Positions 4,552-47,053 of a stretch of DNA of 64,000 nucleotides are shown piece after piece (positions within the stretch are counted from its first letter, which is position 1; each line of letters begins with the position of its first letter). The notes beneath the pieces are model-generated. The model ran no database searches. It was given only the letters and a program-made list of their open reading frames with translations, and was not told the DNA's origin. The stretch is from Pedobacter sp. HMWF019 (GTDB lineage: Bacteria > Bacteroidota > Bacteroidia > Sphingobacteriales > Sphingobacteriaceae). Where the stretch lies: assembly GCF_003061025.1 (NCBI RefSeq), contig NZ_QAIL01000141.1:15059-79058 (forward strand). The letters run 5' to 3'. The position numbers were made by a program, and so were the translations under genes.

Positions 4552-6366
4552 TTAAAATTTCAAATCTTGTCTAAGTTCACCGTTTTCCATGTTGATTAGC
4601 GAGATGTTTTTGAGCTTAAAGTCATCAGGTAATTCGTTTCTCCTGATTTGCACCTGTTTGCAGGCATCCAGCAAGAATGGCGGATGCTTGGAGAAGGAGT
4701 GATAGGTATTGGTTTTGTAAACTTTATTATTGGTAAAGGAAAGATTTTGAACGGATCTTGCAAACAGCAAAGCCCGATCAAAATGCCTGAAGATGTTGTT
4801 CCGGATCTTAATGTTCTGATGGTATGGGAACTGATGTTTCGCTTTAATCGATGGTGTAATGGTAATCACTGCTTCACCCCATTCGGGGCCCGAGGTCAGG
4901 CAGTCTTCAAAGACATTATTGCGGATCAGGACATTCCTGTTTGCTCCGGACTCAAACCAGTAATTCAGGTCTCCTTCGATCAGAATTGCAGCTCCAGCGG
5001 TATTAAAATAATTGTTTTCGATAATTACATCCTTTGGTGTGGTGACCAAAATGCCTCTTGCCCTGTGTTTTTTCAGGATTCTGCAGTTCCTTAGTTCCAG
5101 ACTTGCGGTCCAGGTTTTGTTTTCCAGGTAATGACCTTCTCCAATATTTTCAGGGATATTTTTATCCATCGTCAGTTCGTAACTGGTTACGGTTCCTTGA
5201 TTTCGTAACGTATCGATCTTGACAATTTTGGCTGACCAGTTTCTTTGCATGCTTGCGCTGTCTACAAAGAACAGTTCATCGCCAACCTCACTTAGCCGGA
5301 AGGCGGATCTTCCTCTTGCGGATACTTCGATGTTGCGGCTGTCTGTTCTGCGGAGAATCTTAAAATAAGCACCATGGACATTGATAAAGTCGTCACCCAT
5401 TCCGCTATGTGTGCAGCCATCGATGATAATTTTTCCCTTGCAGTTGACGAAGTGGGAAGCATCGGCAACGATACTGAAAACCCGGCCTTTGTCTTCGTTG
5501 ACAGTCATGCTGGAGTTGAGCATGGAAATGTTTTCGCTTCTTTCTCCAAGTACGCCATGGCTGAGTGCATGGTAAATCTTTACTTTTTCAATAGTCGTAT
5601 TTTTACTGTAGGAAATTTCAATTCCAGGGATAATGTATCGTCCATGATATAGCGTTACAATAGTGCCATTTTCGGGTTTTAAGGGCGTTTTTCCACAGAA
5701 TCTTATCGTGTTTTTTGCAATGATTTCGGCTTTGCCCAAAAATATATTTCCCAATGGGTTGTCTCTGGTTTGGTAGAGGATCTCCCTTTTATCTTTATCA
5801 TATAAGGTGTGGAGATTTGTAAATTCCGATCTGAGCTGGTTTTCCCAGCCCTCGCCTATAAAAGTGAGTATGCCGTTCTCCATATGGTATGGATATTTTA
5901 CGGAATCGATCTTCAGATCGATAAACGCATGGCTGGTCTTTATAATTTCTCCCTGAGAAATGTAAGGCCGGTCCCAATCAATGCTAAAATCCTTAAGTTT
6001 GACATTGGTGCTGCCCTTAATCAGAAAGGGACGCATTTTTCCATGGAAGACAAACGCCGAACCATGGCCATCAATCAACACATTTTTTAGATTTTTTAAT
6101 TCGAAACCGTTAATTGAGGTCATCTTGGTTACTGAATCAATGGGCGTAAAATCGTATCTTCCTTTTTGAAAATGCAGTTCTATTGAGAGGTCTTTTGCGT
6201 GCTTCTCAAAAATCTTTTTTAGAACCGGGACCATATTTTTTCCATCGGAGGGTTGGATGCCCCAATCACTTAACCTGATTATAACCGGGCACTGGGCCTG
6301 AACTGAGAATGCTATGTAGAGCAACAAAAAGGCTGCAACCATAGATTTTTTTGTTTTGTTATGCAT
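4552..6366 (-). CDS. GH110 alpha-1,3-galactosidase-like beta-helix enzyme
   Basis: A 604-residue exported right-handed beta-helix protein (signal peptide ending near VQAQ), close to the usual GH110 length of about 600. GH110 enzymes remove terminal alpha-1,3-linked galactose, as in blood group B or linear alpha-Gal epitopes. The spacing Asp302 (VADASHF) to Asp325-Asp326 (GMGDDF) matches the reported catalytic Asp321, Asp344, Asp345 of Pseudoalteromonas PdGH110B (numbers from memory). IDWDRPYISQGEI and a KYPY segment further support the family. I start at ATG 6366, which overlaps the end of the upstream hybrid regulator as ATGCATAA, so translation is probably coupled. A TTG at 6372 is less likely. 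Specificity cannot be read from sequence. Confidence 0.8.
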   Translation of the reverse strand: MHNKTKKSMVAAFLLLYIAFSVQAQCPVIIRLSDWGIQPSDGKNMVPVLKKIFEKHAKDLSIELHFQKGRYDFTPIDSVTKMTSINGFELKNLKNVLIDGHGSAFVFHGKMRPFLIKGSTNVKLKDFSIDWDRPYISQGEIIKTSHAFIDLKIDSVKYPYHMENGILTFIGEGWENQLRSEFTNLHTLYDKDKREILYQTRDNPLGNIFLGKAEIIAKNTIRFCGKTPLKPENGTIVTLYHGRYIIPGIEISYSKNTTIEKVKIYHALSHGVLGERSENISMLNSSMTVNEDKGRVFSIVADASHFVNCKGKIIIDGCTHSGMGDDFINVHGAYFKILRRTDSRNIEVSARGRSAFRLSEVGDELFFVDSASMQRNWSAKIVKIDTLRNQGTVTSYELTMDKNIPENIGEGHYLENKTWTASLELRNCRILKKHRARGILVTTPKDVIIENNYFNTAGAAILIEGDLNYWFESGANRNVLIRNNVFEDCLTSGPEWGEAVITITPSIKAKHQFPYHQNIKIRNNIFRHFDRALLFARSVQNLSFTNNKVYKTNTYHSFSKHPPFLLDACKQVQIRRNELPDDFKLKNISLINMENGELRQDLKF

Positions 6367-9300
6367 TTTCAATAACTCCCGAAGTTTTAATGTATTCTTT
6401 TGGAGAAATGCCGTACATCTCCTTAAAATATCTGTTAAAGTGTGCGTTGCTTGATATGCCGATTTCGAACATAACTTCTGAAATTCTTCTTGAACCGCTG
6501 GCTAAAAGCTGACCAGCTCTTTTCATGCGGATCTCTCTGATGAACTCTGATGCGGTTTTGCCGATAATGGCGTGTAACCTGCGGTGAAGGTTCATCCGGC
6601 TCATTCCAATATGATCGCACATTTTTTCTACGCTGAGGTTATTGTCGGCCATATTTTCTTCCACGTAAGCGACAATCTTGCTCAGCAATTCTTTGTCCGG
6701 CGACGGAATGCAGACTTCTGAAGGATTTGTCAGGTCTTGTTTATGAATATTCAGCACGAGTTGGTTTTTCGATTTCAGGATGTTGTTGACTTTCAGGGTG
6801 AGCATGGTATAATCGTATGGTTTGGCAATGAAATCATCGGCCCCTGCCAATAAAGCATTTTTTACGCTTTGGGTTGTATTGTTGATGCTGTGCACGATGA
6901 CCGGGATGTGGCTGGTTTTTGCATTTGATTTTACCCGCCTGCAAACATCGGTACCATCCAGCGAAGGCATCATCAGATCCGTAATAACAATGTCCGGCAG
7001 GCTTTTTTGAGCGATTTCTATGCCGTCAATACCGTTGCTGGCCTCTAGAACATGAAAATGTGGCAAGAGACATTCTTTTAAGTAAGCACGCTGGTCTTCA
7101 TTGTCTTCAACGATCAGTATTGTTTTTTTTGACAGGTTAATTTCATCTTTAACCGGTTTTGACATGTTCCGTGGAACTGCATCTTTTTTAAGCTCACTTT
7201 CCTGGATGTTTTCCGCCTTATACCGGGCTTTACTGATGGGAAATGTGATCGTAAATTTAGAGCCGGTATCCAATGCGGTTTCCAGCTCAATTCCACCACC
7301 ATGCATTTCGATGAGTTTTTTGGAGATGGATAAACCTATTCCTGTACCGGAATTGTAATGTGAAGTACTTTGGTAATACATTTCAAAAATCCTGTCTTTC
7401 TCTTCCTCATGGATGCCTATTCCGCTGTCCTGGATCGTAATAATGGCCAGTTCGGCCTCAATTTCCAGCGCAACGGCAATTTTTCCTCCAGAGGGGGTGT
7501 ACTTAAAGGCATTCGAAATGAGATTGAAGACGACTTTTTCCACTTTATCACGGTCAAACCAGGCCTTTTGTGTTCTTGGGCTCTGGAAATCGAAGCGGAT
7601 ATTGTTTTGATTTGCCTGCCAGTCAAAAGATTCCTTGACATTAAGCAGCGTCTGAACCAGATCTGATTCTCTAACGATTAATTTTTCGGCATCGGATGCT
7701 ATTTTTCTCAAATCCAGTACCTGGTTGATCAGGGCATGCAGTTTTAAGGAATTTCTGTGTATGATCTTTAACCGCATGGCCGTAAAGTGGTCATATACAG
7801 TGGAAACACTGAGCAGGTCTTGCAATGGGCTTAGGATGAGGTTGAGCGGTGTTCTGATTTCATGAGTAATTGTGGTGAAGAAACTGAGCTTGATGTCATT
7901 GAGTTCGGTTACTTTCTCTTTTTCCAGTTTTTCTTTGAAAATTTCGTTCTTGAACCGGTTTTTTGTCCTGAAATAATTAATTAAAAGGGAAACGGATACC
8001 GCAAAAACCAGAAAATAAAATGTTTTTGCCCACCAGGTTGCCCATGGGGCTGGTGTGATCTCAAAGTCGATGCTCCGGATTTCCTTTGGGAAGGTACCAT
8101 CATTGTTCGATGAACTGAGCAAGAACCTGTAATGTCCTGGATCAAGGTTGGAATACGCTGCAATTCTTTGATCATAGCCTGTTGTGATCCAGTCTTTGTC
8201 GTAACCTTCAAGTTTATAGCGGAATCTGTTGTTTTCGGGTGCAACGAAGTGTAGTGAAGAGAAAGCGAGTGCAAAATCTTTGTGCCTGTAAGAAAGCACA
8301 ATATTTTTGGTGTAATTGATATCTGCGGATAATATGGCCTCTCCATCAATTTTTTCATTGATTTTTACCTTTTTATTGGAAACTCTGAATTCTGTAAATG
8401 CCGTACTGGTCGTGAATGGGTTGTTCCTGATCGTTTTGGGCTGGAAATAGTTCAATCCATTGATCCCGCCAAAATACATGATGCCCAATTTGTTTTTATA
8501 GGCGGCCTCGGTCAGGGTATTGCTCTGCAGGCCATCCTGATAGGTATATCTTTTTGCGGTATTGTGGTCAATACTGTATTTGAACAGCCCCTGGCTGCTG
8601 CTTAACCAGAGGTTTTTTACATCATCTTCTAATATTGCCATAATCTTCTGGTCGCTCAAAAGTGGTGTATTGACCGTTCTGTAATTGTTGATCTTACCTG
8701 TTTTATCCAGTGACAATGCATTTAAACCAGCGTCGGTACCGATCCAAAGGATGTTGCGCTGGTCGCGGTAGATGGACCAAACATGGTTGCTGCTTAAGCT
8801 ATTGATGTTGTTTTCCATGTGCTTGTACACCAAGATTTTTATGTTTTCCGTACTGTCGTAACGGATGGCGTTCAGGCCGCCGCCAATAGTACCGATCCAT
8901 ATGATCGGGACGTAGGGATCCTGGTAAACTGCATAGACCGAGTTAGATGAAATGCCGTTTGCAAGGGTAAGGGTGGTAAACTGGTTGTTTTTGGGGTTAT
9001 ATTTATACAGCCCTGTAAAACTTGCTATCCACAGATTTCCAAAATTGTCTTCACAAATGGACCGTGCAATAAAACCACTTTTAACGGCCAGTATTTTTTT
9101 TCGGCCGCTTGAAGCAATGTTTAAGACCTTATACAGGCCATCGTTACCGCCGATCCAGATGGTTTTGTCTTTGCTCTGCTGGATACTGCAGATCGATGGT
9201 GAACTGATTTCGCTTTTGTAAGAATCGATCTGTCGGGTGGCTTTATCATAGATATAAAGGCCCTCATTGAAGGTTCCTATCCAGAGGTCCCGGTCGGTTT

Positions 9301-10411
9301 CTGCCAATGCAGAAACATATTTACCCTGATAGCCGAATATGCCTTCCCTGTTTTTCATCAAAGGGAAAAAGGAATAGAAATTCTTTGAGGAGAGATCGGT
9401 ATAGTTTATTCCACTCTGATAGGTACCTACCCAAAGGGTATTCGAGCGGTCTATAAAAAGTGTGTTTGCTGCGTTTTCTGAGAGGTTACAGAACAGCTTT
9501 TCAGTGGTGTATTGATTGATCTGCCCGATGTTGGACCGGCTATCCAGGTTGACCTTAAAAATTCCATCTACTTTTGAACCTACCCATAGGTCGCCGTTCA
9601 AATCCTGCCGAAGCGAGGTTATCTCTGCCGTTTTGGGCAAAGTATAGGTATAGGGTATTTCTTTAAAATTACTGCTAATCCGGTATAGCTGATGGACTGA
9701 ACCTACCCAGATATGGCCATTATGATCTTGGAACAGGGAAGAGATCCAGGCATTTTCGATGATCGTTTCCGGTCTGCTTCTTTTGACATCTTTTAGTGCA
9801 GCTGTTTTAAATATATAGAGGCCTTTATCTGTTGCGACCCAGATATTTCCTTTTTTATCCGTCAACAGGGATTTGATGTTCCTGTTTTTCAGATCAGCAG
9901 GAAAAAAAACCTGCTTCGCTCCTGTAGTTTTCCCTTTAATAATGGCCAGGCCTTTGATCGTTCCCGCCCAGATGTTGCCGGCCTGATCGGTGGTGATGGT
10001 CTGCACGGTATTGCTGGCGATGTCGTTCGTTTTGATATCAAAATGTGTCATGCTGTCCAAACGCGGATCAAGTACATTGATGCCCCCGCCATCGGTACCG
10101 ATCAGGATCTGTTCCTGTTGATTTTCATAAAGGCTCAGTACACGGTTATCTGACAGACTGTTCCTGTTATTGGAAATATGGCGTTTGGTCTGTACCGAAA
10201 ATCCGTCAAAACGGTTTAATCCGTCATAAGTCCCAATCCAGATAAATCCCTTTTTATCCTGGATGATGGCTGTAATGGAGTTCTGTGACAACCCGTTATT
10301 TACAGATAGATATCTAAAGGAATAATTCTGAGAAAAGTCCATTCCATAGGGTTCGGTGCTCTTGCCTGAAAATGGAAACAACAATAGGGAGAGGATAAAG
10401 AAAAATCTCAT
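6359..10411 (-). CDS. Hybrid two-component system sensor/regulator (HTCS)
   Basis: A single-chain sensor, kinase and transcription factor of about 1350 residues, typical of PUL control. Order: signal peptide; two-component propeller repeats (many NIWVAT/LWIGT-like motifs, roughly residues 30-700); Y_Y_Y domain (about 735-800); membrane helix near 810-828; histidine kinase with His850 (THEIRTP); ATPase with N-box (NLISNAFKYTP) and GTGIGLSISK; receiver with Asp1145 (VITDLMMP); C-terminal AraC-type helix-turn-helix. I chose ATG 10411, which directly begins the signal peptide, over an in-frame GTG at 10429. It is divergent from the GH2 operon and is the likely activator of both PUL promoters. Confidence 0.95.
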   Translation of the reverse strand: MRFFFILSLLLFPFSGKSTEPYGMDFSQNYSFRYLSVNNGLSQNSITAIIQDKKGFIWIGTYDGLNRFDGFSVQTKRHISNNRNSLSDNRVLSLYENQQEQILIGTDGGGINVLDPRLDSMTHFDIKTNDIASNTVQTITTDQAGNIWAGTIKGLAIIKGKTTGAKQVFFPADLKNRNIKSLLTDKKGNIWVATDKGLYIFKTAALKDVKRSRPETIIENAWISSLFQDHNGHIWVGSVHQLYRISSNFKEIPYTYTLPKTAEITSLRQDLNGDLWVGSKVDGIFKVNLDSRSNIGQINQYTTEKLFCNLSENAANTLFIDRSNTLWVGTYQSGINYTDLSSKNFYSFFPLMKNREGIFGYQGKYVSALAETDRDLWIGTFNEGLYIYDKATRQIDSYKSEISSPSICSIQQSKDKTIWIGGNDGLYKVLNIASSGRKKILAVKSGFIARSICEDNFGNLWIASFTGLYKYNPKNNQFTTLTLANGISSNSVYAVYQDPYVPIIWIGTIGGGLNAIRYDSTENIKILVYKHMENNINSLSSNHVWSIYRDQRNILWIGTDAGLNALSLDKTGKINNYRTVNTPLLSDQKIMAILEDDVKNLWLSSSQGLFKYSIDHNTAKRYTYQDGLQSNTLTEAAYKNKLGIMYFGGINGLNYFQPKTIRNNPFTTSTAFTEFRVSNKKVKINEKIDGEAILSADINYTKNIVLSYRHKDFALAFSSLHFVAPENNRFRYKLEGYDKDWITTGYDQRIAAYSNLDPGHYRFLLSSSNNDGTFPKEIRSIDFEITPAPWATWWAKTFYFLVFAVSVSLLINYFRTKNRFKNEIFKEKLEKEKVTELNDIKLSFFTTITHEIRTPLNLILSPLQDLLSVSTVYDHFTAMRLKIIHRNSLKLHALINQVLDLRKIASDAEKLIVRESDLVQTLLNVKESFDWQANQNNIRFDFQSPRTQKAWFDRDKVEKVVFNLISNAFKYTPSGGKIAVALEIEAELAIITIQDSGIGIHEEEKDRIFEMYYQSTSHYNSGTGIGLSISKKLIEMHGGGIELETALDTGSKFTITFPISKARYKAENIQESELKKDAVPRNMSKPVKDEINLSKKTILIVEDNEDQRAYLKECLLPHFHVLEASNGIDGIEIAQKSLPDIVITDLMMPSLDGTDVCRRVKSNAKTSHIPVIVHSINNTTQSVKNALLAGADDFIAKPYDYTMLTLKVNNILKSKNQLVLNIHKQDLTNPSEVCIPSPDKELLSKIVAYVEENMADNNLSVEKMCDHIGMSRMNLHRRLHAIIGKTASEFIREIRMKRAGQLLASGSRRISEVMFEIGISSNAHFNRYFKEMYGISPKEYIKTSGVIENA

Positions 10412-10473
10412 AAAGGATATTTGGTACACAATTGTAACTATTTATCGCGTATAAATAAATCTTTAAGGAGCTA

Positions 10474-10541
10474 TTGTTACATAAGCTCATTTTTTTGTTA
10501 CGTGTGTAATCTTGGAAGTGGAATTATCGCAATAACATTGT
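10474..10541 (+). promoter_or_regulatory. Candidate HTCS operator and promoter of the GH2 operon
   Basis: Two direct copies of TTGTTAC (10474-10480 and 10495-10501) start 21 bp apart, about two helical turns. CAATAACATTGT follows at 10530-10541. Its inner TAACATTG is one base off the TAnnTTTG -7 box, with TTG 18 bp upstream (10512-10514). The same three blocks occur with identical spacing before susC at 19136-19203. The role as HTCS binding site is inferred. Confidence 0.65.
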
Positions 10542-10598
10542 ATGTCTGATTTTATGATCTAAATCAGCTTACTGTTAAACACACTAACCAAATATATA

Positions 10599-13271
10599 AT
10601 GAAATACAAAAAATCTGCTTATCCTAAGGTACTTCTACTCGCCCTGATGTCTTTATCGATGTCGGCGCCCAAAGTGGTAATGGGGCAAAAAACAGTTGGT
10701 CCGAAACCGGCATTTTCAGTGGCCGGATTCTATCCCCAAAGCGATAGTCCACGCAAGGTCTATAATTTTAATCCTGGCTGGCGTTTTTTTAAAGGCAATA
10801 TAAAAGGGGCTGAACAGGTAGGGTTTAACGATTCGGCCTGGGCGCAGGTTTCGCTGCCGGATGGTCTGGAAATTTTGCCTGAAAATGCAAGTGGAATGCG
10901 CAATTACCAGGGGCCGGCCTGGTACCGGAAAACTTTTAAAACCGCATCAACCAATGGAAAAAGCTTTATTTACTTTGAGGGGGTGATGGGGAAGGCTGTT
11001 GTTTATCTTAACGGTATAAAGGTAAAAGAGCACTTTGGAGGTTATCTGCCATTTGTGGTAGACATCGATAATTCTACATTGACCAAAAATGGGAACAATG
11101 TTATTGCTGTTCTTGCGGATAACTCAAACGATGAATCTTATCCTCCGGGGAAAGCGCAGGACAATCTGGATTTTGCTTATCTGGGCGGGATCTACAGGGA
11201 TGTTTATTGGATTGAAACACCATCTCTTCATCTCAGCTTTCCTGAGCTGAGTAAAACCATAGCTGGGGGTGGGGTATTTGTAGCGGTAAAAGATGTAAAT
11301 GGAAACAGTGCCAATATTGAGGTAAGGACGGAGGTACAGAATGAAGGTAATGCAGATGTAAAGCTTTCGGTCCGTTCTACACTTGAGGATAGGGATGGAA
11401 AAGTGATATTGACCAAAACTGGTACTTTAAAGGTAATTAAAGGAGGCTCGCAACAGATGATTCAGCAACTGGATGTGAAGAACGTACACCTGTGGCATCC
11501 GGATGATCCTTATCTGCATTTTATAAAAACAGAGGTGCTTGAAAATGGCAAAGTGGTAGACAGCTACCGCACACGTTTTGGTATCCGCTTGTTCGAAATG
11601 CGTGGCGACGATGGCTTTTTTGTAAATAAAAAATATATTGGTCATAAACTTTCTGGGGTAAATCGTCATCAGGATTATGTGTATGTTGGAAATGCTGTTC
11701 CAAATACGAGCCAGTACCGCGATGCAAAACTGCTGAGGGAGGCTGGATCTACCATTGTACGTGCTGCGCACTACCCCTTGGATCCTGCTTTTATGGATGC
11801 CTGTGATGAACTTGGACTTCTGGTTACCTCGGCAAATCCGGGCTGGCAGTTTTACAATGACAAAGATCCCCGTTTTGAGAAGTTTCTTGCTGAAGATACC
11901 CATAATCTGGTTAGAAGGGACCGCAACCGTGCCGCATTGTTACTTTGGGAAACTGCCATCAATGAGACGCCTTGGCAGCCTGCATCGGTGATGAATAACC
12001 TTCACCGTATTGTCCATCAGGAATTTCCTTATCCTGGAGCCTTTACGGCGGCAGATGTAGATGAAGCTAAAAAGGCGGGTTTTGATTTTTATTATCACGG
12101 CGGGATGCAGGAAGAAAAAAATTCCTTTACCCGTGAGTATGGTGATGGAGGAGAGGTGGATAATTTCTATTCACAGAATGCAATGAGCAGGGTAAAAAGG
12201 GAATGGGGCGAACTTGCGCTGCTCAATCAGGCCAATATCAGGGCTCAGGGGCTGAACGAAATCTTCAATACGCCCCCAAAAAGGATTGGCGCAGCCTTAT
12301 GGGCAGGTATCGATCACCAGCGAGGTTACCACCCCGACCCATTTTTGGGTGGCTTGCTCGATGTTTACCGCATGCCTAGATATTCTTTCTATTTGTTTAA
12401 AAGTCAATACGATCCCTCTTTTAAGCTTCCGGGTATAGAGACAGGACCAATGGTGTATATTGCCCATGAATTGACCCAGGTATCGGGCGGGGACATTACT
12501 GTTTTCAGCAACTGTGAAGAGGTGAGGCTGACCTGGCTAGGTAAGGTGATTGGCACTGTCAGACCCGACAGCACGATGAAAAATATGCCGCATGCACCAT
12601 TTGTATTTAAAAATGTGTTCAATTTCCATGAGATCAGTACAAACTGGAGAAATAAGACGAAGGAGATCAATCTGATTGCAGAAGGCCTGATTGGCGGGAA
12701 AGTAGTAGTGAGTTCGGTAAAAAAATATCCGGAAAGAACAACTGGAATTAAGCTGGATATTGACAGCGCCGGATTGGGACTATATGCAGATGGTTCTGAT
12801 TTTATCCCTGTTCGGGCCACCATAGTGGATAATAATGGTGTAGCCAAAGTTCTGGCTTCGGAAAATGTCCATTTTGAGGTAGAAGGAGAAGGAACGGTTA
12901 TTGGAAGTGAAGAAAACCAGGCCAATCCGATGAAAACACAGTTTGGTACGGCGACTGTCCTGGTTAGGGCAACAACAAGGGCGGGCAAAATCAAAGTAAA
13001 GGCTTATGTAAATGGTTTGAAGGCCGACGAAATCACATTTAATTCTATACCTGCCGCGCTTCCGCTACTCTTTTCAGATCAGTCTAAACCCATAGCAAAA
13101 AATCCTGGCCCAATAAGTAAACTTGGCCAGGATACAGGAAACCAAAAAAAATCTGCTGAAATGGGTGAGGTAAAGGACCTTAAAGACAGGATTAAACGCC
13201 TGGAGCTTGAGGTGACCAGTCGTGATCAGGATATTATGGAATTGAGAAGCAAAAAAGACAGTAAACATTAA
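10599..13271 (+). CDS. GH2 family beta-galactosidase-like enzyme
   Basis: An exported 890-residue glycosidase. After a signal peptide (about residues 1-30) come the GH2 sugar-binding jelly roll (WRFFKGNIKGAEQ, WYRKTF), an Ig-like domain and the TIM barrel. The likely acid/base is Glu456 in WETAINETPW and the nucleophile Glu513 in FTREYGDGG. Later beta domains resemble those of Bacteroidetes GH2 enzymes. The last 35 or so residues are charged and heptad-like (KDLKDRIKRLELEV), predicting a short coiled coil after a Pro/Lys-rich linker, unusual for the family. It is first in the operon behind the candidate HTCS operator. Beta-galactosidase activity is the likeliest call, but other GH2 activities cannot be excluded. 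Confidence 0.88.
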   Translation: MKYKKSAYPKVLLLALMSLSMSAPKVVMGQKTVGPKPAFSVAGFYPQSDSPRKVYNFNPGWRFFKGNIKGAEQVGFNDSAWAQVSLPDGLEILPENASGMRNYQGPAWYRKTFKTASTNGKSFIYFEGVMGKAVVYLNGIKVKEHFGGYLPFVVDIDNSTLTKNGNNVIAVLADNSNDESYPPGKAQDNLDFAYLGGIYRDVYWIETPSLHLSFPELSKTIAGGGVFVAVKDVNGNSANIEVRTEVQNEGNADVKLSVRSTLEDRDGKVILTKTGTLKVIKGGSQQMIQQLDVKNVHLWHPDDPYLHFIKTEVLENGKVVDSYRTRFGIRLFEMRGDDGFFVNKKYIGHKLSGVNRHQDYVYVGNAVPNTSQYRDAKLLREAGSTIVRAAHYPLDPAFMDACDELGLLVTSANPGWQFYNDKDPRFEKFLAEDTHNLVRRDRNRAALLLWETAINETPWQPASVMNNLHRIVHQEFPYPGAFTAADVDEAKKAGFDFYYHGGMQEEKNSFTREYGDGGEVDNFYSQNAMSRVKREWGELALLNQANIRAQGLNEIFNTPPKRIGAALWAGIDHQRGYHPDPFLGGLLDVYRMPRYSFYLFKSQYDPSFKLPGIETGPMVYIAHELTQVSGGDITVFSNCEEVRLTWLGKVIGTVRPDSTMKNMPHAPFVFKNVFNFHEISTNWRNKTKEINLIAEGLIGGKVVVSSVKKYPERTTGIKLDIDSAGLGLYADGSDFIPVRATIVDNNGVAKVLASENVHFEVEGEGTVIGSEENQANPMKTQFGTATVLVRATTRAGKIKVKAYVNGLKADEITFNSIPAALPLLFSDQSKPIAKNPGPISKLGQDTGNQKKSAEMGEVKDLKDRIKRLELEVTSRDQDIMELRSKKDSKH

Positions 13272-13287
13272 TGACGCCCATTTGAAC

Positions 13288-15042
13288 ATGAAATTATTTT
13301 TAATGAAATTAATGGCTACCCTGGTCTGCAGCCTGATTATTTTTACAGCAAAGGCAGAGGATAAAACGGTGGATATTGCCGATTTTGCGAAATACAGGAG
13401 GGCCGATGATGCCGCACCAATGATAAGGGTAGCGATAGCGTATTGCAAACAGATAAGAGCGACCAAACTTATTTTTCCGAAAGCTACTTATTATTTTAAG
13501 CGTGATTTAGCTGCTGAGAAATATGTTTTCATGAGTAATAACGATGAAGGCCTGAAGCGTTTTGTTTTCGATCTTTCGGGTATGGAGAACCTGGAGATCG
13601 ACGGACAGGGTTCGAAGTTTATCCTTACTGGATTTTTGAGTCCATTTTTGCTGGAGAACTGCCGGAATATTTCATTGAGGAATTTCTCGATCGATTATGT
13701 GCGTACTTTTCACAGCGAGGCTAAAATCTTAAGTGTAGATAAAAGCGGTATGACGGTACAGTTTGATCGGAAGTTCCCCTACAAACTGGATCATCAGACT
13801 TTGATCTTTACCGATAGCGCAGGCGTGGTGTATCCCTGGAGCGATTTACTGGAATTTGATCCTTTAAAAAAGGAAACAGCCTTTATGGCTAATGACCTTT
13901 GGGTGGGTTCTAATGTTCCCGTCAAAGAGATAAAACCCGGAACTGTTAAACTTTTATTGCCACAGATTACCGGTATACCCGGAAACGTAATGGTTTTTGC
14001 CTCAGCATTTCGTCTGGTTCCTGCCTTCAATATCTCCGGTAGTGTTAATATTAGTTTCAGCGGCATCGATATTTTTCATTGTGGAGGAATGGGGATTGTT
14101 GCACAGAACAGCCGGGATCTTTTTTTGGATCATGTCAGGGTAACGCCATCGCCAGGCAGTGGTCGTATTGTGAGCATTACGGCGGATGCAACACACTTTT
14201 CAAATTGTTCTGGAAAAATTACAATAGAGAACTGTCTTTTTGAGAACCAAAAGGATGATGCTACCAATATCCATGGCATTTATAGCAAGATCACCAGAAT
14301 TAATACTCCCTACGAGATTGAGGTAGAACTGGTCCATAAACAACAGTTTGGTTTTGAGTATCTGAAGCCGGATATGAAGGTGGAATTTGCTGATGCTACA
14401 AGTATTGTCACCTATGCCAATAACTCGGTAAAAAGCACCGAAAGGATAAATAAAGAGTTTACCAGAGTGGTTTTTGCGGACCCCATTTCGCCCAATACAA
14501 AACTGGGTGATGTCATTGCCTGTTCGACGGATTATCCGGAGGTTCTGATCAGAAATTGTGTGATCCGGGGGAACCGGGCGCGTGGAATTTTGTTAAACTC
14601 AAGGGGGAAAACAGTTGTAGAGCACAATACTTTTCATGTGCCCGGAGCGGCCATTTTATTTGAAGGTGATGCGAGTTTCTGGTTTGAACAATCGGGTGTA
14701 AATGGTGTGACTATCCGGAACAATACTTTTGATAACTGCAATTATGGGGTATGGGGAAATGCCTGTATCCAGGTCGGATCGGGAATCCTGAAGCGTGTTC
14801 GTTCGAAAAGCCGTTACCATAAAGATATCAGTATTGTTGGTAATACTTTTAAGATTTTTGATCCACGGATTATTAATGCCTACTGTGTGGATGGATTGAT
14901 CTTTAAGGATAATAAAATAGAGCAAAGCGAAGCTTACCGTTCGAATTTTTCAGATGGTAAAGCTTTTGTGATCGACGCCTGTTCGAACGTGTCCATTGAT
15001 GGATATGACATTAGGAATGCGGTAGATCATGTTAAAAAGTAA
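13288..15042 (+). CDS. Second GH110-like beta-helix enzyme
   Basis: A 584-residue exported beta-helix protein (signal peptide ending near TAKAED). It resembles the enzyme at 4552-6366 throughout, and has the same catalytic spacing: Asp300 (TADATHF) to Asp323-Asp324 (QKDDATNIHG). The stretch YVFMSNNDEG before the helix also looks GH110-like. The start ATG 13288 is 16 bp after the GH2 stop; a TTG at 13282 is less likely. Two divergent GH110 copies in one locus suggest different linkages or chain positions rather than redundancy. Confidence 0.78.
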   Translation: MKLFLMKLMATLVCSLIIFTAKAEDKTVDIADFAKYRRADDAAPMIRVAIAYCKQIRATKLIFPKATYYFKRDLAAEKYVFMSNNDEGLKRFVFDLSGMENLEIDGQGSKFILTGFLSPFLLENCRNISLRNFSIDYVRTFHSEAKILSVDKSGMTVQFDRKFPYKLDHQTLIFTDSAGVVYPWSDLLEFDPLKKETAFMANDLWVGSNVPVKEIKPGTVKLLLPQITGIPGNVMVFASAFRLVPAFNISGSVNISFSGIDIFHCGGMGIVAQNSRDLFLDHVRVTPSPGSGRIVSITADATHFSNCSGKITIENCLFENQKDDATNIHGIYSKITRINTPYEIEVELVHKQQFGFEYLKPDMKVEFADATSIVTYANNSVKSTERINKEFTRVVFADPISPNTKLGDVIACSTDYPEVLIRNCVIRGNRARGILLNSRGKTVVEHNTFHVPGAAILFEGDASFWFEQSGVNGVTIRNNTFDNCNYGVWGNACIQVGSGILKRVRSKSRYHKDISIVGNTFKIFDPRIINAYCVDGLIFKDNKIEQSEAYRSNFSDGKAFVIDACSNVSIDGYDIRNAVDHVKK

Positions 15043-15050
15043 TTCATTAA

Positions 15051-15282
15051 ACCAACCAAATATAATTAATTATGAAAAAAATCTACTCCATTTTTTATCC
15101 GATAGAAAACCAATTTCTAATTTATTACGGGCGTTGGAAATCGAGTTCAAAAGAATTCGGAGCTACAGATTGATTTTGCCGGGGATAAGGGGCAGATCCG
15201 GACTGCTCCGTTATTTCCAGCTTGGTGTACTGTAGCAGATTGCACGGTAAATTTTATCAAGAACCAACCAAAATTTAAAATT
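15051..15282 (+). pseudogene. Possible decayed small gene with an intact leader
   Basis: ACCAACCAAA at 15051-15060 stands 21 nt before ATG 15072, and ACCAACCAAA at 15263-15272 stands 20 nt before the next true ATG at 15283. This suggests that 15072 was once a gene start. The reading frame from 15072 closes after 33 codons. A second open frame (from about 15130) joins the downstream gene's frame without a stop. No homology is recognised. A short real peptide or a plain spacer is also possible. Confidence 0.3.
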
Positions 15283-18249
15283 ATGAGATTTATTTACATG
15301 AGGTTAATCCTGTTTACAGGGTTAATGGGATTCTTTTTGCCTGTCTGGGCCCAGGATATTACCTCTGGTATTGATGCCTGGTATAAGTTTGATTATCAGC
15401 CGAACGATACTTATCTAAAAGATTATTCGGGCAACAACAGGCGTATTACAGCTATTAAAGCCGGACAGCAACAGGATTTCGGCAGCAATTTCCAGTGGAA
15501 TGCGGTAACTATTAATGGTACTCCGCAAAATTCAGTATATTTTCCGGCAGGACGAGATGGAGCTGTCATCTTATCGAATGCAACCGGTAATACCTGGCTG
15601 GGCCAATCAGGAGCTGCGGCAAGAACTTTTTGTGCATGGGTAAAAATAGACCCCGGAGCAGACGAGAATGCAGGCCGGATTTTATTTGCTTATGGTGATG
15701 ACAGCCAGCCCGGTGGAAGATTCGAAATTGACTTAAAAGGACACAAAATCGAATTTGAAAATGCGGTAAATACAGCATCGAACGGGTGGAAAAACAGGAG
15801 TGTTGCGCAGCTTAACAACACAGATCATCCTCAGGGTCAATGGTTACATATTGGCCTGGTCTACGATGGGATAGGGAATAGACAAACCGGATTAAAACTG
15901 TATGTTAATGGCAAAAGACTGCCTCTGACACCGGTAAGCAATGATGCTGATTTTGCGATCAATACAGCATTGCAATATGCGCCTGAGATTGGTAACTATA
16001 TGGAGAAGATGGCTATGGCAGATGTTCGTTTTTACAACAGGGCATTAACGAAGGCAGATATCAATGTGATCTGCCCCGACAATACCCCTCCAAACCCGCC
16101 CTTTTCGATTGCAAGGTTAAGAGAGATCATTCAGACAGCGGTGGATGATCAGGTTGCCGAAGTCACTATTCCCCCTGGAACCTACACGGGAACTGTGGCA
16201 GAAACCGCGTTTATTTCTATAAACGGTGCAAATAATTTAAAGATTATTGCCGACGGGGTAACATTGGTTTGCAGCAAAAAGACCAGGGCACTTTCCTTAT
16301 CTGACTCAAAGAATATAACCATCCAGGGTTTAAAAATTGACTATAATCCTTTGCCATTTACTCAGGGCGATATCATTGCAACAGGATCTGGTTATGTTGA
16401 TATTAAGATCCATAAGGGATATGATGTTAAGCCCTATAGCCGGATCGATATTATTGATCCGGCCACCCGTTTCCGGAAGAAGGGAAATGTATTTCTCTGG
16501 GGTTCAATAGCAGCACTGATCAGTGATTCTGTTGTCCGGGTAACGCAGCCTGCATTGCCAGGTATAGCCGTTGTTGGCGATATGGCCAGTTTAAGCACGG
16601 GAAATGATGATGGTATCCCCCATGCTGTTGCTATTGAGGCAAACCGTGGTGGGATCAAACTACAGAATGTTTCTGTGTTTTGTGCGCCGGGTTTTGGAAT
16701 ATTTGAAGCTGGCGGCGAGGGAGGTACGATATTGGATGGCTGTAAGATTGTTCCGGGCCCACTTCCGTCAGGTGCAGCACAGGAACGTTTGCTGTCTTCT
16801 TCTTGGGATGCCATTCAGCATTCACTGACCCGTGTTGGCCCAACGGTAGAAAACTGTGAGGTCAAAGATGCAGGCGACGATTCGTGGAGTGTAACCTGGG
16901 ATGGTGAATATATGGTGAATGCAGTTTCAGGGAATATCCTGACCCTTTCCAGGACTACCCTGCAGGTGGGTGATTCACTGCGTACTTCTTTGATTTCGGA
17001 TTTTGCTGTGGTCACCGGGAAATCCGGATCGAATGTGACCTTAGACCGTGCTTCGCCATGGGCGGTGGGGGCCAGGTTATATTCTCCAAACAGAAGATGC
17101 GAAAACTTTGTCCTGAGGAACAATAATTTCCGGAGTGCAGGGCGGGTGCTTATTAAAGCTGGGCATGGTCTTATTGAAAACAATACTTTTGATACCGGTC
17201 ATAGCGGGGTGACGGTGAATACGGAGATTGCACCTGGTGCGTCAAGTATTTATAAGCTGATCATCAGGAACAACATCATCCGCTCAACAGGTTATTTCAA
17301 TCCGGCTCCATGGAGTAACCAGGCCGGTGCGATATCCATAGCCGATGGTGCGGGGTACGATCTCTCCCCGGCAGGTGTATTCGATGACATCGTTATAGAG
17401 AAAAATACTTTTGAAGATGTCCTTGGTGTAAACCTGGTGGTTTCATCGGCGAGTAATGTGAAAATTAAGGAAAATAAGTTTTACAGAACAGGGCTGAGCA
17501 TGTCAAATTCTACCGGGTCGCAGTATGGCATCAACCAGCATACGGTTGTTTTTCTTAAGAACCTTAAAAATATAGTGTTGGACAGCAATGAAGTGATCGT
17601 TCAGGGATTGACCTCTTTGCTGGATTCAACAAATTTAAAGGAGTTTACCAAACTGCGGAGGGGAATCTTTATCCGGTCGGAACAGCCCACAGTGATCTCG
17701 GTTTTTTTGACCAGTCCAACGGCAAATGCAAAATTTAAGCCTGGCAGCGATGTTCCTTTGCAGGCGGCTATTACCAGTAATGTTAAGATCGCAAAAGTAG
17801 AGTTTTATCGCGGCTCAGATAAACTGGGCGAAGTGACCAAAACGCCTTATGTATTTAATTGGCCTAAAGTAGCCAAAGGCAATTACAGAATTACTGCCAG
17901 AGCCATTGGTGAGGATAATGTGGCTTCGGTGTCCCAGCAGATCGATATTTCGGTGGAGGATAAAACTGTACTGGAAAAGGACGGGAAACCAGCCCTGAAC
18001 CCACGCAACCTCTTAACCCCAAATGGCGATGGTAAGAATGACTATTGGGAAATTGAAAACATAGCGCACTATCCCGAATTGAAAGTTACGGTTTTTAACC
18101 GGCAGGGACAACAGGTGCTCAGTTCTGAGTCTTTTGAAAGGTGGGATGGGAACTTCAATGGTTCACCTGCTCCGACCGGGATTTATTTCTATTCGATTAC
18201 AGAAAATGGTAAAATAGTTAAAAGTGGAAGTATCACACTAATCCGATAA
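15283..18249 (+). CDS. T9SS type-B-sorted LamG/GH110-like beta-helix protein
   Basis: A 988-residue exported multidomain protein. After the signal peptide (ending near VWAQ) come a LamG/concanavalin-like domain (about 40-260), a right-handed beta-helix (about 270-780), an Ig-like domain (about 800-885, VEFYRGSDKLGEV) and a C-terminal type-B T9SS sorting domain (LLTPNGDGKNDYWEI ... GIYFYSI). The helix contains Asp509 (SWDAIQHS) and Asp532-Asp533 (AGDDSW), the same Asp-x22-Asp-Asp spacing as the two GH110 neighbours, and IDYNPLPFTQGDI parallels their IDWDRPYISQGEI. It is therefore probably a divergent GH110-related enzyme exported by T9SS. The next gene, 2 bp away, is its likely PorP/SprF partner. 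Activity is unproven. Confidence 0.8.
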   Translation: MRFIYMRLILFTGLMGFFLPVWAQDITSGIDAWYKFDYQPNDTYLKDYSGNNRRITAIKAGQQQDFGSNFQWNAVTINGTPQNSVYFPAGRDGAVILSNATGNTWLGQSGAAARTFCAWVKIDPGADENAGRILFAYGDDSQPGGRFEIDLKGHKIEFENAVNTASNGWKNRSVAQLNNTDHPQGQWLHIGLVYDGIGNRQTGLKLYVNGKRLPLTPVSNDADFAINTALQYAPEIGNYMEKMAMADVRFYNRALTKADINVICPDNTPPNPPFSIARLREIIQTAVDDQVAEVTIPPGTYTGTVAETAFISINGANNLKIIADGVTLVCSKKTRALSLSDSKNITIQGLKIDYNPLPFTQGDIIATGSGYVDIKIHKGYDVKPYSRIDIIDPATRFRKKGNVFLWGSIAALISDSVVRVTQPALPGIAVVGDMASLSTGNDDGIPHAVAIEANRGGIKLQNVSVFCAPGFGIFEAGGEGGTILDGCKIVPGPLPSGAAQERLLSSSWDAIQHSLTRVGPTVENCEVKDAGDDSWSVTWDGEYMVNAVSGNILTLSRTTLQVGDSLRTSLISDFAVVTGKSGSNVTLDRASPWAVGARLYSPNRRCENFVLRNNNFRSAGRVLIKAGHGLIENNTFDTGHSGVTVNTEIAPGASSIYKLIIRNNIIRSTGYFNPAPWSNQAGAISIADGAGYDLSPAGVFDDIVIEKNTFEDVLGVNLVVSSASNVKIKENKFYRTGLSMSNSTGSQYGINQHTVVFLKNLKNIVLDSNEVIVQGLTSLLDSTNLKEFTKLRRGIFIRSEQPTVISVFLTSPTANAKFKPGSDVPLQAAITSNVKIAKVEFYRGSDKLGEVTKTPYVFNWPKVAKGNYRITARAIGEDNVASVSQQIDISVEDKTVLEKDGKPALNPRNLLTPNGDGKNDYWEIENIAHYPELKVTVFNRQGQQVLSSESFERWDGNFNGSPAPTGIYFYSITENGKIVKSGSITLIR

Positions 18250-18251
18250 CC

Positions 18252-19127
18252 ATGAAATATTTATTAGCAGTTCTGATGCTCGCCCTTTTTGGTGAGAAAA
18301 GTTTTCCTCAGGTCAGCTCATACAACCATTATTATAATCATCCTTTTATGTATAATCCTGCATTTGCAGGTATTGAAGATATGGGCCAGCTTACTGCTGT
18401 TTCGCGTATGCAATGGGCAGGTTCGGAACGTGTTGTTTCCTCTGCCTTTATCACGGCGGAATTACCACTCAAAAAGAATATAGCCATTGGCGGTCGGTTT
18501 TATAGCGATAAGCAGGGATTGATTAACCATAGTGGCGGTCTTTTTACACTTGCTTATCATTTGCCCTTAAGCAGTAACTCAAAACTGAGTTTTGGCATTT
18601 CTGCCGGTGCATCAAAGCGGAGCGTCAGCACCGGGAACCTGAATGTGTCCAGTCCGGATGATCCCATAGTTGGGAACCCCGAAAATAATAGGGGAGGTCT
18701 TGATGGTGACTTTGGAGTGAATTATAATTATAAGGGGCTGAACCTAGGTGTTGCAATGCCCTCTCTTTTTGGATCGGACAAGGATGACATCCGTTTTGGA
18801 CAGCAGAAAGGACAGTTGGTTTTACTGTCCGCTGCCTATAAGATCAATACTGATTTTGCATCAATTGTGCCGCAGGTTATTTATAGGAGTAAAAGCGAAT
18901 TCCAGGGGAAAACGGAAACCATGCTCACCTTGTATTTTAAGCAGAATTTTTGGGGTGGTAGCTTATATCGATTTGGGTATGGGCCGGCATTTTACGGTGG
19001 CTTTAAGATCAATCCGCATTTTAGTCTGGGTTATGCTTACGAAACTGGCCCGGGTGGCCGATCGGTGTCCATCAGCGGCACGCATGAAATTTCTCTGAGT
19101 TATCAATTTGCCAAAAAAGACACTTAA
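18252..19127 (+). CDS. PorP/SprF family outer-membrane protein
   Basis: A 291-residue outer-membrane barrel protein with signal peptide. YYNHPFMYNPAFAG and VSRMQWAG are hallmarks of the PorP/SprF family of T9SS. Members are typically paired with type-B sorted cargo and help export or hold it at the surface. Here it follows such a cargo by 2 bp, so it is probably a dedicated partner and not the core PorP, which would sit with porK-N genes. Confidence 0.9.
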   Translation: MKYLLAVLMLALFGEKSFPQVSSYNHYYNHPFMYNPAFAGIEDMGQLTAVSRMQWAGSERVVSSAFITAELPLKKNIAIGGRFYSDKQGLINHSGGLFTLAYHLPLSSNSKLSFGISAGASKRSVSTGNLNVSSPDDPIVGNPENNRGGLDGDFGVNYNYKGLNLGVAMPSLFGSDKDDIRFGQQKGQLVLLSAAYKINTDFASIVPQVIYRSKSEFQGKTETMLTLYFKQNFWGGSLYRFGYGPAFYGGFKINPHFSLGYAYETGPGGRSVSISGTHEISLSYQFAKKDT

Positions 19128-19135
19128 AATGTCTG

Positions 19136-19203
19136 TTGTTACAAAAAGACGCTTTTTTGTTACAGTGCAATAGCTGTAAGTGCGTTTTTAACAATAACAT
19201 TGT
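19136..19203 (+). promoter_or_regulatory. Candidate HTCS operator and promoter of the susCD operon
   Basis: TTGTTAC at 19136-19142 and 19157-19163, then CAATAACATTGT at 19192-19203. All spacings are identical to those before GH2 (21 bp between repeats, 29 bp from the last repeat base to the third block). The inner TAACATTG would be the -7 box; the -33 position holds CTG rather than TTG, which suits a promoter that needs an activator. Distance to the susC ATG is 93 bp, against 98 bp for GH2. Confidence 0.65.
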
Positions 19204-19255
19204 TGCTGCCAAACAAACAATACAAACTAACCAATATATAAACCAAATATTTCAA

Positions 19256-22200
19256 ATGATGATTTTTAATTTACGGGCTAATCTTAGGGTCAGGTGTAAG
19301 CCGTACAGGCAATTTTCTGCCATCAAAATGTTGGGTCTGCTGTTGCTTTTCATGCTTTTTGTTCCAGACGGAGCGGTATCTGCAAAACTGCAGATGAAAA
19401 CTACAGTCAGATTGTCCATTGATATAATCAGAGGAAAGATTACTGATGGAAAAGGAGCAGGCTTGCCAGGGGTAAGTGTTAAACTCAAAGGGACAAAAAC
19501 AGGTGCCGTGACGGATGCGGAGGGAAACTATTCGCTGAAGGTAGAAAAAGCAGAGGGTACCTTGGTCTTCTCTTTTATAGGCTATGAAACCCAGGAGGTT
19601 GAACTTAATGGAAAAAGCACGATTGATGTTGTACTGAAAGAGGCTGAAAATACAATGGACGATGTTGTTGTGGTCGGCTTTGGAACACAAAAAAAGAGCA
19701 CTCTTGTGGGTGCGGTATCAACCGTAAAGGTATCAGATATAAAGATCGCCGCCGGTCGCTCGCTGACCAATACTTTGGCGGGTAAGGTTGCCGGGGTGAT
19801 CTCGGTACAAAGAAGCGGAGAGCCAGGTAAAGACGATGCGCAGTTTTGGATCCGCGGCATCAGCACTTTTGGTGCGGGCAGGGAGCCTTTGGTACTGGTA
19901 GATGGGGTAGAACGGCCAATGAACAATGTAGAGCCAGAGGATGTAGATAATTTTTCGGTACTAAAAGATGCTACGGCAACAGCAATTTATGGTATCCGTG
20001 GTGCAAACGGTGTCATCCTGATTACTACGCGCAGGGGTAAAATGGCAAAACCCGCAGTAAATTTTAAATATGAACAGGGAAGATTGCAGGCGACCTCGAA
20101 ACCAAAATTTGTGGATGCCCCGACTTATTTGACTTTACTCAATGAGGCCAATCTGGCCACAAATCCAAATTATGTTACGCCTTACACCCCTGATGTCATT
20201 GAGAAATATCGTTCAGGTGTTGATCCGCTCTTGTATCCGAACGTGGATTGGATGGGGTTGATGATGAAGGACTTTTCCAATAACCAACGGGCAACAATGA
20301 ATGTTAGCGGAGGGTCGGAAAAGGCAAAATATTATGTTTCCGGAAGTTATTATGATGAATCGGGTATTTGGAGTACGGATGCACTTAAAACATACAATTC
20401 GCAGAGCAAACTCCAGCGGATAAATTTCCGTTCGAATATTGATCTGCAGCTGCGTACCGATATGGAACTGAGCTTGGGAATGGGCGGTTATCTGATGCTC
20501 AATAATTATCCTGGCGATGGGAATTCTGGCGCGATCTGGTACAATATGATGCTGGCTACTCCGGCAAAATATGCACCTACGGCTCCAGATCCGGAAGATC
20601 CGAGAAAGGTGATCTACCTGAACAGCGGGGGATCGGGTAACTTTAATCCTTACCAGTATCTGGTGGATAGGGGTTATACCAACCAATGGGCAAATACGCT
20701 TCAGACCGATATTACCTTAAAATATGATGCGGATAAGCTGCTGAAAGGTTTAAAATCCTCTGTTAAGTTTGCTTATGATGCGTATTCCTACAACAACGTG
20801 CAGCGTTTAAGGAGCGGGGATAGCTGGACAATCGTTCCTCCCGGAAGAGATCCGGTTACCGGACAACTGGTTTTACAGAAAAGTTATACGGGTTCAAAGG
20901 ATCTGTCGTATACCAAATCAGCAGGTGGAAACAGGCGTATTTATTTTGTGGGCCAACTGGATTACAACCGTCAGTTTGGAGACCATACGGTTTCGGGTAT
21001 GATGGCTTACAATCAGCAGGATTACCAGAATGGTGATGCTGCAAACGCAATGGCCGCTCTTCCATTCCGCTTTATGGGATTGGTGAGCAGGGCAACTTAT
21101 GCATATAAATCCAGGTATTTCTTTGAAGCAAATGCGGGTTATAACGGTTCGGAAAACTTTGCCGCTGGCCATAGGTTTGGCCTGTTTCCTTCAGCAGGTC
21201 TGGGCTGGATTGCATCAGAAGAATCCTTCTTTAAGAATCTTATCAGTCAGGATTATGTGAGTTTTTTAAAGTTAAGAGCGTCAATAGGGATGAAAGGTAA
21301 TGACAACCTGGGGGCCCGCCGTTTTGCTTACTTAACGACAGTTGGTGGCGGATATGGTGCTTATCTTCTTGGGCAGGATGTCAATGTAAACTGGGGAAGT
21401 GTTGGAGAGAATGAATGGGGCGCTGATCTGACCTGGGAAAAGGAAAGAGAAGTTAACCTTGGTTTCGAACTGCGTTTTTTAAAGGGATTTTATCTGCAGG
21501 CTGATTTCTTTAACCGTCACCGTAAAGGGATCTTTCTGCAAAGGAATTCTATCCCACAAACAGCTGGTTTAAACCAGAAGCCATGGGGCAATATCGGAGA
21601 GTTTAAAAACCATGGTATTGATGCAACACTGGAGTATTCTAAAAATATTGGGGAGGTCAATGTTGCGGTTCGTGGTAATTATACTTTTGCAAGGAACAAC
21701 CTGCTCGACAATGATGAACCTGATTATGTGTATACCTATCAAAATGCAAAAGGTAAACGTTTAGGACAGCCATTTGGTTTGATCGCAGAAGGACTTTTCA
21801 CTTCTCAGGAAGAAATCAACAGTTCACCAAGACAGACATTTGGTGCGGTCCGTGTAGGGGATATCAAATATAAGGATGTTAACGGCGATGGGGTGATTGA
21901 TACTTATGATGATGTGGCGATCGGTAACTCGGACGTCCCGGAGGTGGTATACGGCTTTGGAACTTCTGTTTCTTATAAGGGGTTTGACGTTTCTGTATTC
22001 TTCCAGGGCGCGGCAAATATGGATTTTATGCTTGGGGGCGATGGATTCTTTCCTTTTACCAGGGGAGAGACGCAGGGGGGTGTAACCTATTATGCAACAG
22101 ATAGATGGATGCCGGAAAATCCAAGTCAGAATGTTCTTTTTCCGCGCTTAAGTTCTGGGTCTAACCCGAACAACTACCGCAATTCTACCTGGTGGCAAAG

Positions 22201-22423
22201 AAAGGCAGATTACCTGAGATTGAAAACTGCTGAAATAGGTTACAGTTTGCCAAAAAGATGGACGCAAAAGGCAAAAATATCTGTTTTGAGGGTGTATGCC
22301 TCGGGAATGAACCTCTATACCTTTAGCAGTTTTAAATTCTGGGATCCGGAATTGGGGAACGGAAACGGTGCGTCTTATCCCTTACAGAAAACATTTATTC
22401 TTGGCGTAAACATTAATTTTTAA
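19256..22423 (+). CDS. SusC/RagA-type TonB-dependent glycan importer
   Basis: An outer-membrane barrel of about 1055 residues that imports oligosaccharides with its SusD lid, using TonB energy. Order: long n-region plus signal peptide (ending near AVSAKL), carboxypeptidase-regulatory-like domain (IRGKITDGKGAGLPGVSV), TonB-box-like DDVVVVGFGTQKK, plug (LAGKVAGVISVQRSGEPG) and the barrel ending GVNINF. I start at ATG 19256, with ATG 19259 next to it; an upstream TTG frame extension covers the operator and is rejected. susD follows after 4 bp. Confidence 0.95.
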   Translation: MMIFNLRANLRVRCKPYRQFSAIKMLGLLLLFMLFVPDGAVSAKLQMKTTVRLSIDIIRGKITDGKGAGLPGVSVKLKGTKTGAVTDAEGNYSLKVEKAEGTLVFSFIGYETQEVELNGKSTIDVVLKEAENTMDDVVVVGFGTQKKSTLVGAVSTVKVSDIKIAAGRSLTNTLAGKVAGVISVQRSGEPGKDDAQFWIRGISTFGAGREPLVLVDGVERPMNNVEPEDVDNFSVLKDATATAIYGIRGANGVILITTRRGKMAKPAVNFKYEQGRLQATSKPKFVDAPTYLTLLNEANLATNPNYVTPYTPDVIEKYRSGVDPLLYPNVDWMGLMMKDFSNNQRATMNVSGGSEKAKYYVSGSYYDESGIWSTDALKTYNSQSKLQRINFRSNIDLQLRTDMELSLGMGGYLMLNNYPGDGNSGAIWYNMMLATPAKYAPTAPDPEDPRKVIYLNSGGSGNFNPYQYLVDRGYTNQWANTLQTDITLKYDADKLLKGLKSSVKFAYDAYSYNNVQRLRSGDSWTIVPPGRDPVTGQLVLQKSYTGSKDLSYTKSAGGNRRIYFVGQLDYNRQFGDHTVSGMMAYNQQDYQNGDAANAMAALPFRFMGLVSRATYAYKSRYFFEANAGYNGSENFAAGHRFGLFPSAGLGWIASEESFFKNLISQDYVSFLKLRASIGMKGNDNLGARRFAYLTTVGGGYGAYLLGQDVNVNWGSVGENEWGADLTWEKEREVNLGFELRFLKGFYLQADFFNRHRKGIFLQRNSIPQTAGLNQKPWGNIGEFKNHGIDATLEYSKNIGEVNVAVRGNYTFARNNLLDNDEPDYVYTYQNAKGKRLGQPFGLIAEGLFTSQEEINSSPRQTFGAVRVGDIKYKDVNGDGVIDTYDDVAIGNSDVPEVVYGFGTSVSYKGFDVSVFFQGAANMDFMLGGDGFFPFTRGETQGGVTYYATDRWMPENPSQNVLFPRLSSGSNPNNYRNSTWWQRKADYLRLKTAEIGYSLPKRWTQKAKISVLRVYASGMNLYTFSSFKFWDPELGNGNGASYPLQKTFILGVNINF

Positions 22424-46926: not shown

Positions 46927-47053
46927 GAATAGTTTTGTCTTAATTTGGCGCAAAGGTACCAATTTTTTTGAAATCAGACACTCAATAAACTTGCAGGGAA
47001 GGTAAATAATAATTATGTTTATAAAACTGAAAATATAAATTAACATTATCACT

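Follow-up and report, generated by a model that had tools for sequence, protein, structure and literature searches.

The window, the whole 64,000-nucleotide stretch of Pedobacter sp. HMWF019 DNA that was analyzed, comes from a soil bacterium. It contained a SusC/SusD pair, a regulator, and CAZyme-encoding ORFs together, as in a SusCD polysaccharide utilization locus (PUL), in the order P0001, HTCS, GH2, GH110 (P0002), P0003, PorP/SprF, SusC, SusD, and DUF5013. Annotated ORFs and the junction relevant to this study were as follows.

4552 to 6372, minus strand: P0001, a divergent GH110 protein (sequence search, residue comparison); the ATG at 6366 is the likely start
6359 to 10429, minus strand: HTCS hybrid two-component regulator of the cluster (profile match)
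10599 to 13271, plus strand: GH2 enzyme, beta-galactosidase-like, under the curated GalA cutoff (profile match)
13282 to 15042, plus strand: P0002, a GH110 alpha-galactosidase (sequence search, tree); TTG start as listed, with the ATG at 13288 likely
15043 to 15282, plus strand: junction that holds an S1_15-type sulfatase gene in sister Pedobacter and Desertivirga clusters, absent in the window
15283 to 18249, plus strand: P0003, 988 residues, with signal peptide, LamG, GH110-like core, Ig, and T9SS type B regions (domains, profiles, model)
18252 to 19127, plus strand: PorP/SprF, a T9SS partner protein adjoining the secreted enzyme gene (profile match)
19136 to 22423, plus strand: SusC-like TonB-dependent transporter (profile match); an ATG near 19256 is the likely start
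22428 to 24251, plus strand: SusD-like lipoprotein, predicted to bind glycan (profile match)
24266 to 25330, plus strand: DUF5013 protein of the cluster (profile match)

The gene cluster, its counterparts, and the architecture of P0003

A core of HTCS, GH2, P0003, SusCD, and DUF5013 was kept in Pedobacter, Desertivirga, Dyadobacter, and Coprobacter, and the gene order of the window recurred in Desertivirga and in a Pedobacter MAG (within the portion of the MAG locus read). In the latter two, an ORF predicted to encode an S1_15-type 6-sulfatase lay between the GH110 and P0003 ORFs (L018:7491-8987; L019:7656-9140). No remnant of this sulfatase was found at 15043 to 15282 of the window; because the gene is cleanly missing there while the downstream flank is conserved, it was probably lost in the window lineage. 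A sulfatase with 60% identity was encoded elsewhere in the host genome. The P0003 clusters of Dyadobacter and Coprobacter contained no GH110 ORF within the 21.6-kb locus examined, and both genomes hold GH110 elsewhere.

A P0001 ortholog (57.6% identical) was located just past the HTCS gene in Desertivirga, whose cluster also included an 819-residue protein with no Pfam match (L019:3426-5885). In Coprobacter, P0001-like and P0002-like GH110 ORFs were found in another cluster, together with a member of the wider family described below. The second gut cluster of Coprobacter secundus (L151:1-20000 and L152) also contained four GH43 ORFs, a GH2 ORF, and a GH27 ORF, and its content hints at an arabinogalactan-like target.

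The GH110-like beta-helix core of P0003 spanned approximately residues 274 to 790, with the following mapped features.

15613 to 16065, plus strand: LamG/concanavalin-like domain, residues 111 to 261 (PF13385, E = 1.7e-13)
16807 to 16809, plus strand: Asp509, counterpart of the base Asp321 of PdGH110B (hhalign register, 72/72 invariant)
16876 to 16881, plus strand: Asp532-Asp533, counterparts of the acid Asp344 and base Asp345 (hhalign register)
18004 to 18237, plus strand: T9SS type B sorting domain, residues 908 to 985 (PF13585, TIGR04131)

The LamG, Ig, and T9SS domains had been assigned to this protein in an earlier, sequence-only reading, and profile matches bore them out, the Ig domain corresponding to Big_7 (PF17957). 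LamG was also present in the Dyadobacter and Coprobacter orthologs. T9SS tails, of type B or type A, were found on P0003 orthologs of Pedobacter, Desertivirga, and Dyadobacter, and none was detected by profile search on the Coprobacter ortholog, P0001, P0002, or the GH2 proteins tested. The PorP/SprF ORF directly follows the P0003 gene and is present in the clusters of Pedobacter and Desertivirga as well; no such ORF was found in the locus of Dyadobacter, whose P0003 ortholog has a type A tail. A match to PF08480 (disaggregatase) was discounted as a short match to beta-helix repeats.

The shared aspartate motif and the two GH110 proteins

The sequence-only reading had noted an Asp-x22-Asp-Asp spacing common to three beta-helix proteins, and the motif occurred exactly once in each. 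It lies at D304/D327-328 in P0001 when numbering starts at the TTG at 6372 (302/325-326 with the internal ATG as start), at D302/D325-326 in P0002, numbered from its TTG (300/323-324 with the internal ATG as start), and at D509/D532-533 in P0003; the earlier numbering of P0001 and P0002 was two lower only because it had begun at the internal ATG. The ID[WY] strand and the related turn that follows it, described in the same reading, were recovered in the alignment as FSIDW...SQGEI (P0001), FSIDY...SEAKI (P0002), and LKIDY...TQGDI (P0003). The catalytic residues of PdGH110B named in that reading are correct, being the acid Asp344 and the bases Asp321 and Asp345 (PMC7939477).

The spacing by itself is weak evidence, because it appeared in 6%, 16%, and 17% of shuffled copies of the three proteins (17% for P0003) and in two unrelated ORFs of the window (SusD, 22428 to 24251, and the ORF at 45832 to 47136). 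Homology takes the motif beyond chance: the exact spacing was present in 76 of 80 relatives of P0003, and all three Asp residues were invariant in the 72 relatives that were aligned.

P0002 matched PdGH110B (7JW4; E = 5.5e-142) and was its sister in the tree (support, 100). It contains the triad (D302, D325, and D326) and a complete -1 subsite of the PdGH110B type (N86, R244, N329, R434, E461, W467, and E469), without the +1 residues Lys207 and Arg208 of PdGH110B, and it belongs to GH110 by sequence, triad, and full -1 subsite. P0001 matched AmGH110 (8PVS; E = 4.7e-78), and its membership rests on sequence and the catalytic triad; N331, R439, E466, W472, and E474 are also kept, the Asn85 loop is deleted, and a Tyr occupies the Arg265 position. 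By sequence, both proteins are ordinary GH110 members, with P0001 the divergent one, and the specificity of P0001 may differ from that of known GH110 enzymes. P0001 grouped with a sequence from locus L113.

Relationship of P0003 to GH110 and its sugar-contact residues

A single-sequence phmmer search with P0003 produced no significant match to a characterized GH110 protein (best E = 0.038), and neither P0003 nor 18 close relatives matched the Pfam models of the GH110 barrel (PF23763/PF23764). Likeness to GH110 was found at the profile level only. A four-sequence alignment, scanned against genome contigs, recovered 206 relatives of P0003, of which 80 were kept; the family alignment comprised 72 sequences. 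The 80 kept came from Verrucomicrobiota, Planctomycetota, Lentisphaerota, Bacteroidota, Spirochaetota, Pseudomonadota, and other phyla; none was found on viral contigs. A profile of the 18 closest members, compared to the PDB, matched GH110 chains alone with significance (E = 9e-15; next non-GH110 match, E = 0.14).

The 988-residue protein had been placed beforehand in a new GH110-related group, and these comparisons uphold that placement. Alignment of the 72-sequence family with 15 GH110 sequences (hhalign; probability, 100; E = 8e-64; 493 columns) was end to end and colinear through both barrel insertions. The triad was in register, with counterparts of Asp321, Asp344, and Asp345 in 72/72 sequences (Asp509, Asp532, and Asp533 in P0003), so that by alignment the GH-N-type arrangement of one Asp plus an Asp pair occupies homologous positions. 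No curated family covers the protein, and no other family claimed P0003 in profile searches. An AF2 model of the core with the 72-sequence alignment as input had a pLDDT of 93.1 and a pTM of 0.92 (pLDDT from the single sequence, 41.5). Searched against the PDB with Foldseek, the model returned GH110 structures for all of the best 15 matches (E = 8.5e-24 to 4e-20; TM, 0.69 to 0.75), followed by GH28 (E = 1.6e-7; TM, 0.39), consistent with the GH110 beta-helix fold. Alignment and predicted model together show that the fold, topology, and catalytic residues of P0003 are those of GH110.

GH110 and the sister family were separated in the tree (quick search) by a branch of 1.21 substitutions per site (support, 100), and the P0003 clade formed one side of a branch, also with a support of 100. 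The clade is rare in the family, with 2 members among 301 strong matches, the host genome itself supplying one; apart from that genome, none of the 395 Bacteroidota sampled contained a member. The sister family (loci L034 to L097) carries the pattern DxFHSK...GDD...RSRGILIKAS...PE.W.E. It has no curated Pfam family beyond generic beta-helix models, and no description of it was found in the open-license literature.

In PdGH110B, galactose is contacted by Asn85, Arg265, Asn348, Arg453, Glu480, Trp486, and Glu488, and Arg451 belongs to the +1 site (PMC7939477). Among the 54 relatives outside the P0003 clade, Trp486 and Glu488 were each kept in 51, Arg451 in 49, Arg453 in 47, and Glu480 in 46; the full set of these five was present in 40 of the 54, versus none of 18 in the P0003 clade. 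Neither the Asn85 loop nor Arg265 occurred anywhere in the sister family (hhalign). Judged from the galactose-binding residues that it does keep, the wider sister family likely comprises inverting alpha-galactosidases or enzymes close to them.

Within the P0003 clade, the Glu480 counterpart (Glu648 in P0003; 18/18 members) was the only residue of the set clearly kept in the alignment. P0003 lacks Trp486, Glu488, Asn348, Arg265, the Asn85 loop, and Arg451 of PdGH110B. DDSWS in the clade corresponds to DDxxN in GH110 and, in most of the wider family, to DDxxN or DDxxA; R-x-R-G is replaced in the clade by S-x-G-R. Misalignment is an unlikely cause of the loss of Trp486 and Glu488, since the segment past Glu480 has neither a Trp nor a Glu at the corresponding positions in any clade member. 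Around residues 617 to 621 (the R-x-R-G region), the alignment of P0003 is ambiguous by one residue, and Arg621 might replace Arg453. The clade conserves a set of its own, consisting of Trp535, Ser536, Arg621, Arg398, and Trp406. The alignment shows that P0003 has other residues in place of those that bind sugar in the -1 subsite, with fold and triad unchanged; Glu648 might still bind a galactose-like sugar.

Predicted function of P0003 and comparison with known systems

The reading we favor, with a probability of about two-thirds, is that P0003 belongs to the GH110 lineage as a secreted, inverting glycoside hydrolase with a remodeled pocket and is not a GH110 alpha-galactosidase. Judged from its fold and triad, it should use the catalytic machinery of GH110; it is likely active and probably cuts a sugar other than galactose. 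It should not be filed as GH110, because both the sequence comparison and the comparison of the galactose subsite speak against membership. We hold more tentatively, at somewhat less than even odds, the broader proposal that P0003 founds an uncharacterized family of the GH110/GH-N lineage in which galactose recognition was exchanged for that of another sugar, acting as a secreted first-cutting enzyme in Bacteroidota and forming a branch of a large sister family across Verrucomicrobiota, Planctomycetota, Lentisphaerota, and other phyla.

As in PdGH110B, Asp532 of P0003 would be the proton donor, and Asp509 and Asp533 would activate water; these roles predict cleavage of an alpha (axial) bond with inversion. 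Given the lost galactose contacts, the -1 site would accommodate a sugar other than plain terminal galactose. More speculatively, P0003 may open the polymer extracellularly, possibly in endo mode, or remove a nongalactose cap, because it lacks the pocket-forming Trp and Glu together with the Asn85 loop and because no other enzyme of the locus carries a secretion tail. It would then stand upstream of GH2 and GH110, in the place held by GH150 in the lambda-carrageenan cascade (PMC12549532), with SusCD importing fragments to periplasmic GH2 and GH110 exo-enzymes.

Three paralogous enzymes had been taken in the sequence-only reading to point to a glycan with several alpha-galactoside linkages, a claim that did not survive: the 1.21-substitution branch, the absent galactose contacts, and the Dyadobacter and Coprobacter clusters without GH110 all count against it. 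An origin of the three as recent paralogs is rejected by the same well-supported branch. A proposal in line with the sequence-only reading, that P0003 is a GH110-like exo-alpha-galactosidase with a rearranged pocket and that the three enzymes address different alpha-galactose linkages, is improbable. It would account for the shared fold and triad, the Glu480 counterpart in every clade member, the position of P0003 beside P0002, close kin of PdGH110B, and a possible Arg453 role for Arg621, but it has to accommodate the absence of Trp486, Glu488, Asn348, Arg451, Arg265, and the Asn85 loop, although most of the set is kept in the wider sister family, as well as loci of Dyadobacter and Coprobacter with no adjacent GH110.

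We consider it very unlikely that P0003 has no catalytic activity and serves as a beta-helical glycan-binding protein at the surface or in the medium. The three Asp residues are invariant in 72 sequences from phyla that lie far apart, among them short proteins of a single domain from Verrucomicrobiota and Planctomycetota, even though the LamG, Ig, and secretion tail would fit a binding protein and most GH110 sugar-contact residues are gone. Still less credible is a lyase or epimerase on a beta-helix scaffold: alginate epimerases and PL6 lyases did appear lower in the Foldseek results, but with E values near 1e-5 and TM scores of 0.3 to 0.4, versus 1e-23 and 0.73 for GH110, and the GH-N-type Asp triad is strictly kept. 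Under the favored reading, that of a GH110-lineage hydrolase with a remodeled pocket, P0003 represents a testable substrate change on a fixed catalytic center, in which the glycone pocket changes around three constant Asp residues; the wider sister family, which keeps the galactose pocket, provides the comparison group. The analysis also points to a GH110-sister family with more than 200 members in one scan, and the conserved secreted P0003 may decide which glycan this type of cluster attacks.

Compared to the structures of GH110 alpha-1,3-galactosidases (PdGH110B, 7JW4/7JWF; PdGH110A, 9BEH; AmGH110, 8PVS; PpaGal, 9I4F; AgaBb, 8YK1), P0003 has the same right-handed beta-helix core, with the Asp-x22-Asp-Asp triad in register. 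Unlike them, it shows only approximately 17% identity in structural alignment and no Pfam barrel match, has its -1 galactose contacts replaced, and carries its own LamG, Ig, and T9SS modules. In clan GH-N (GH28, GH49, and GH87), a single Asp and an Asp pair are carried on a beta-helix (PMC7939477). Both GH28 and GH87 appeared in the Foldseek results for P0003, and 7 of 72 relatives touched the GH28 Pfam model; however, the structural match was much weaker (TM, approximately 0.4), and the clade profile had no significant match.

The lambda-carrageenan PUL of Pseudoalteromonas distincta comprises GH110A, GH110B, GH2, S1_15, S1_8, and GH150 (PMC12549532). The present cluster resembles that gene set in its two GH110 ORFs and GH2 ORF, in the S1_15-type Gal/GalNAc-6-sulfatase of the sister genomes, and in the grouping of P0002 with PdGH110B. 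It differs in that neither GH150 nor S1_8 was seen in the loci read and that the window cluster is without a sulfatase, and the passages of PMC12549532 consulted describe no counterpart of P0003. Because GH150 and S1_8 were not seen despite the set of GH110, GH2, and S1_15, the target glycan is more likely another alpha/beta-galactan or a galactose-decorated polymer than lambda-carrageenan.
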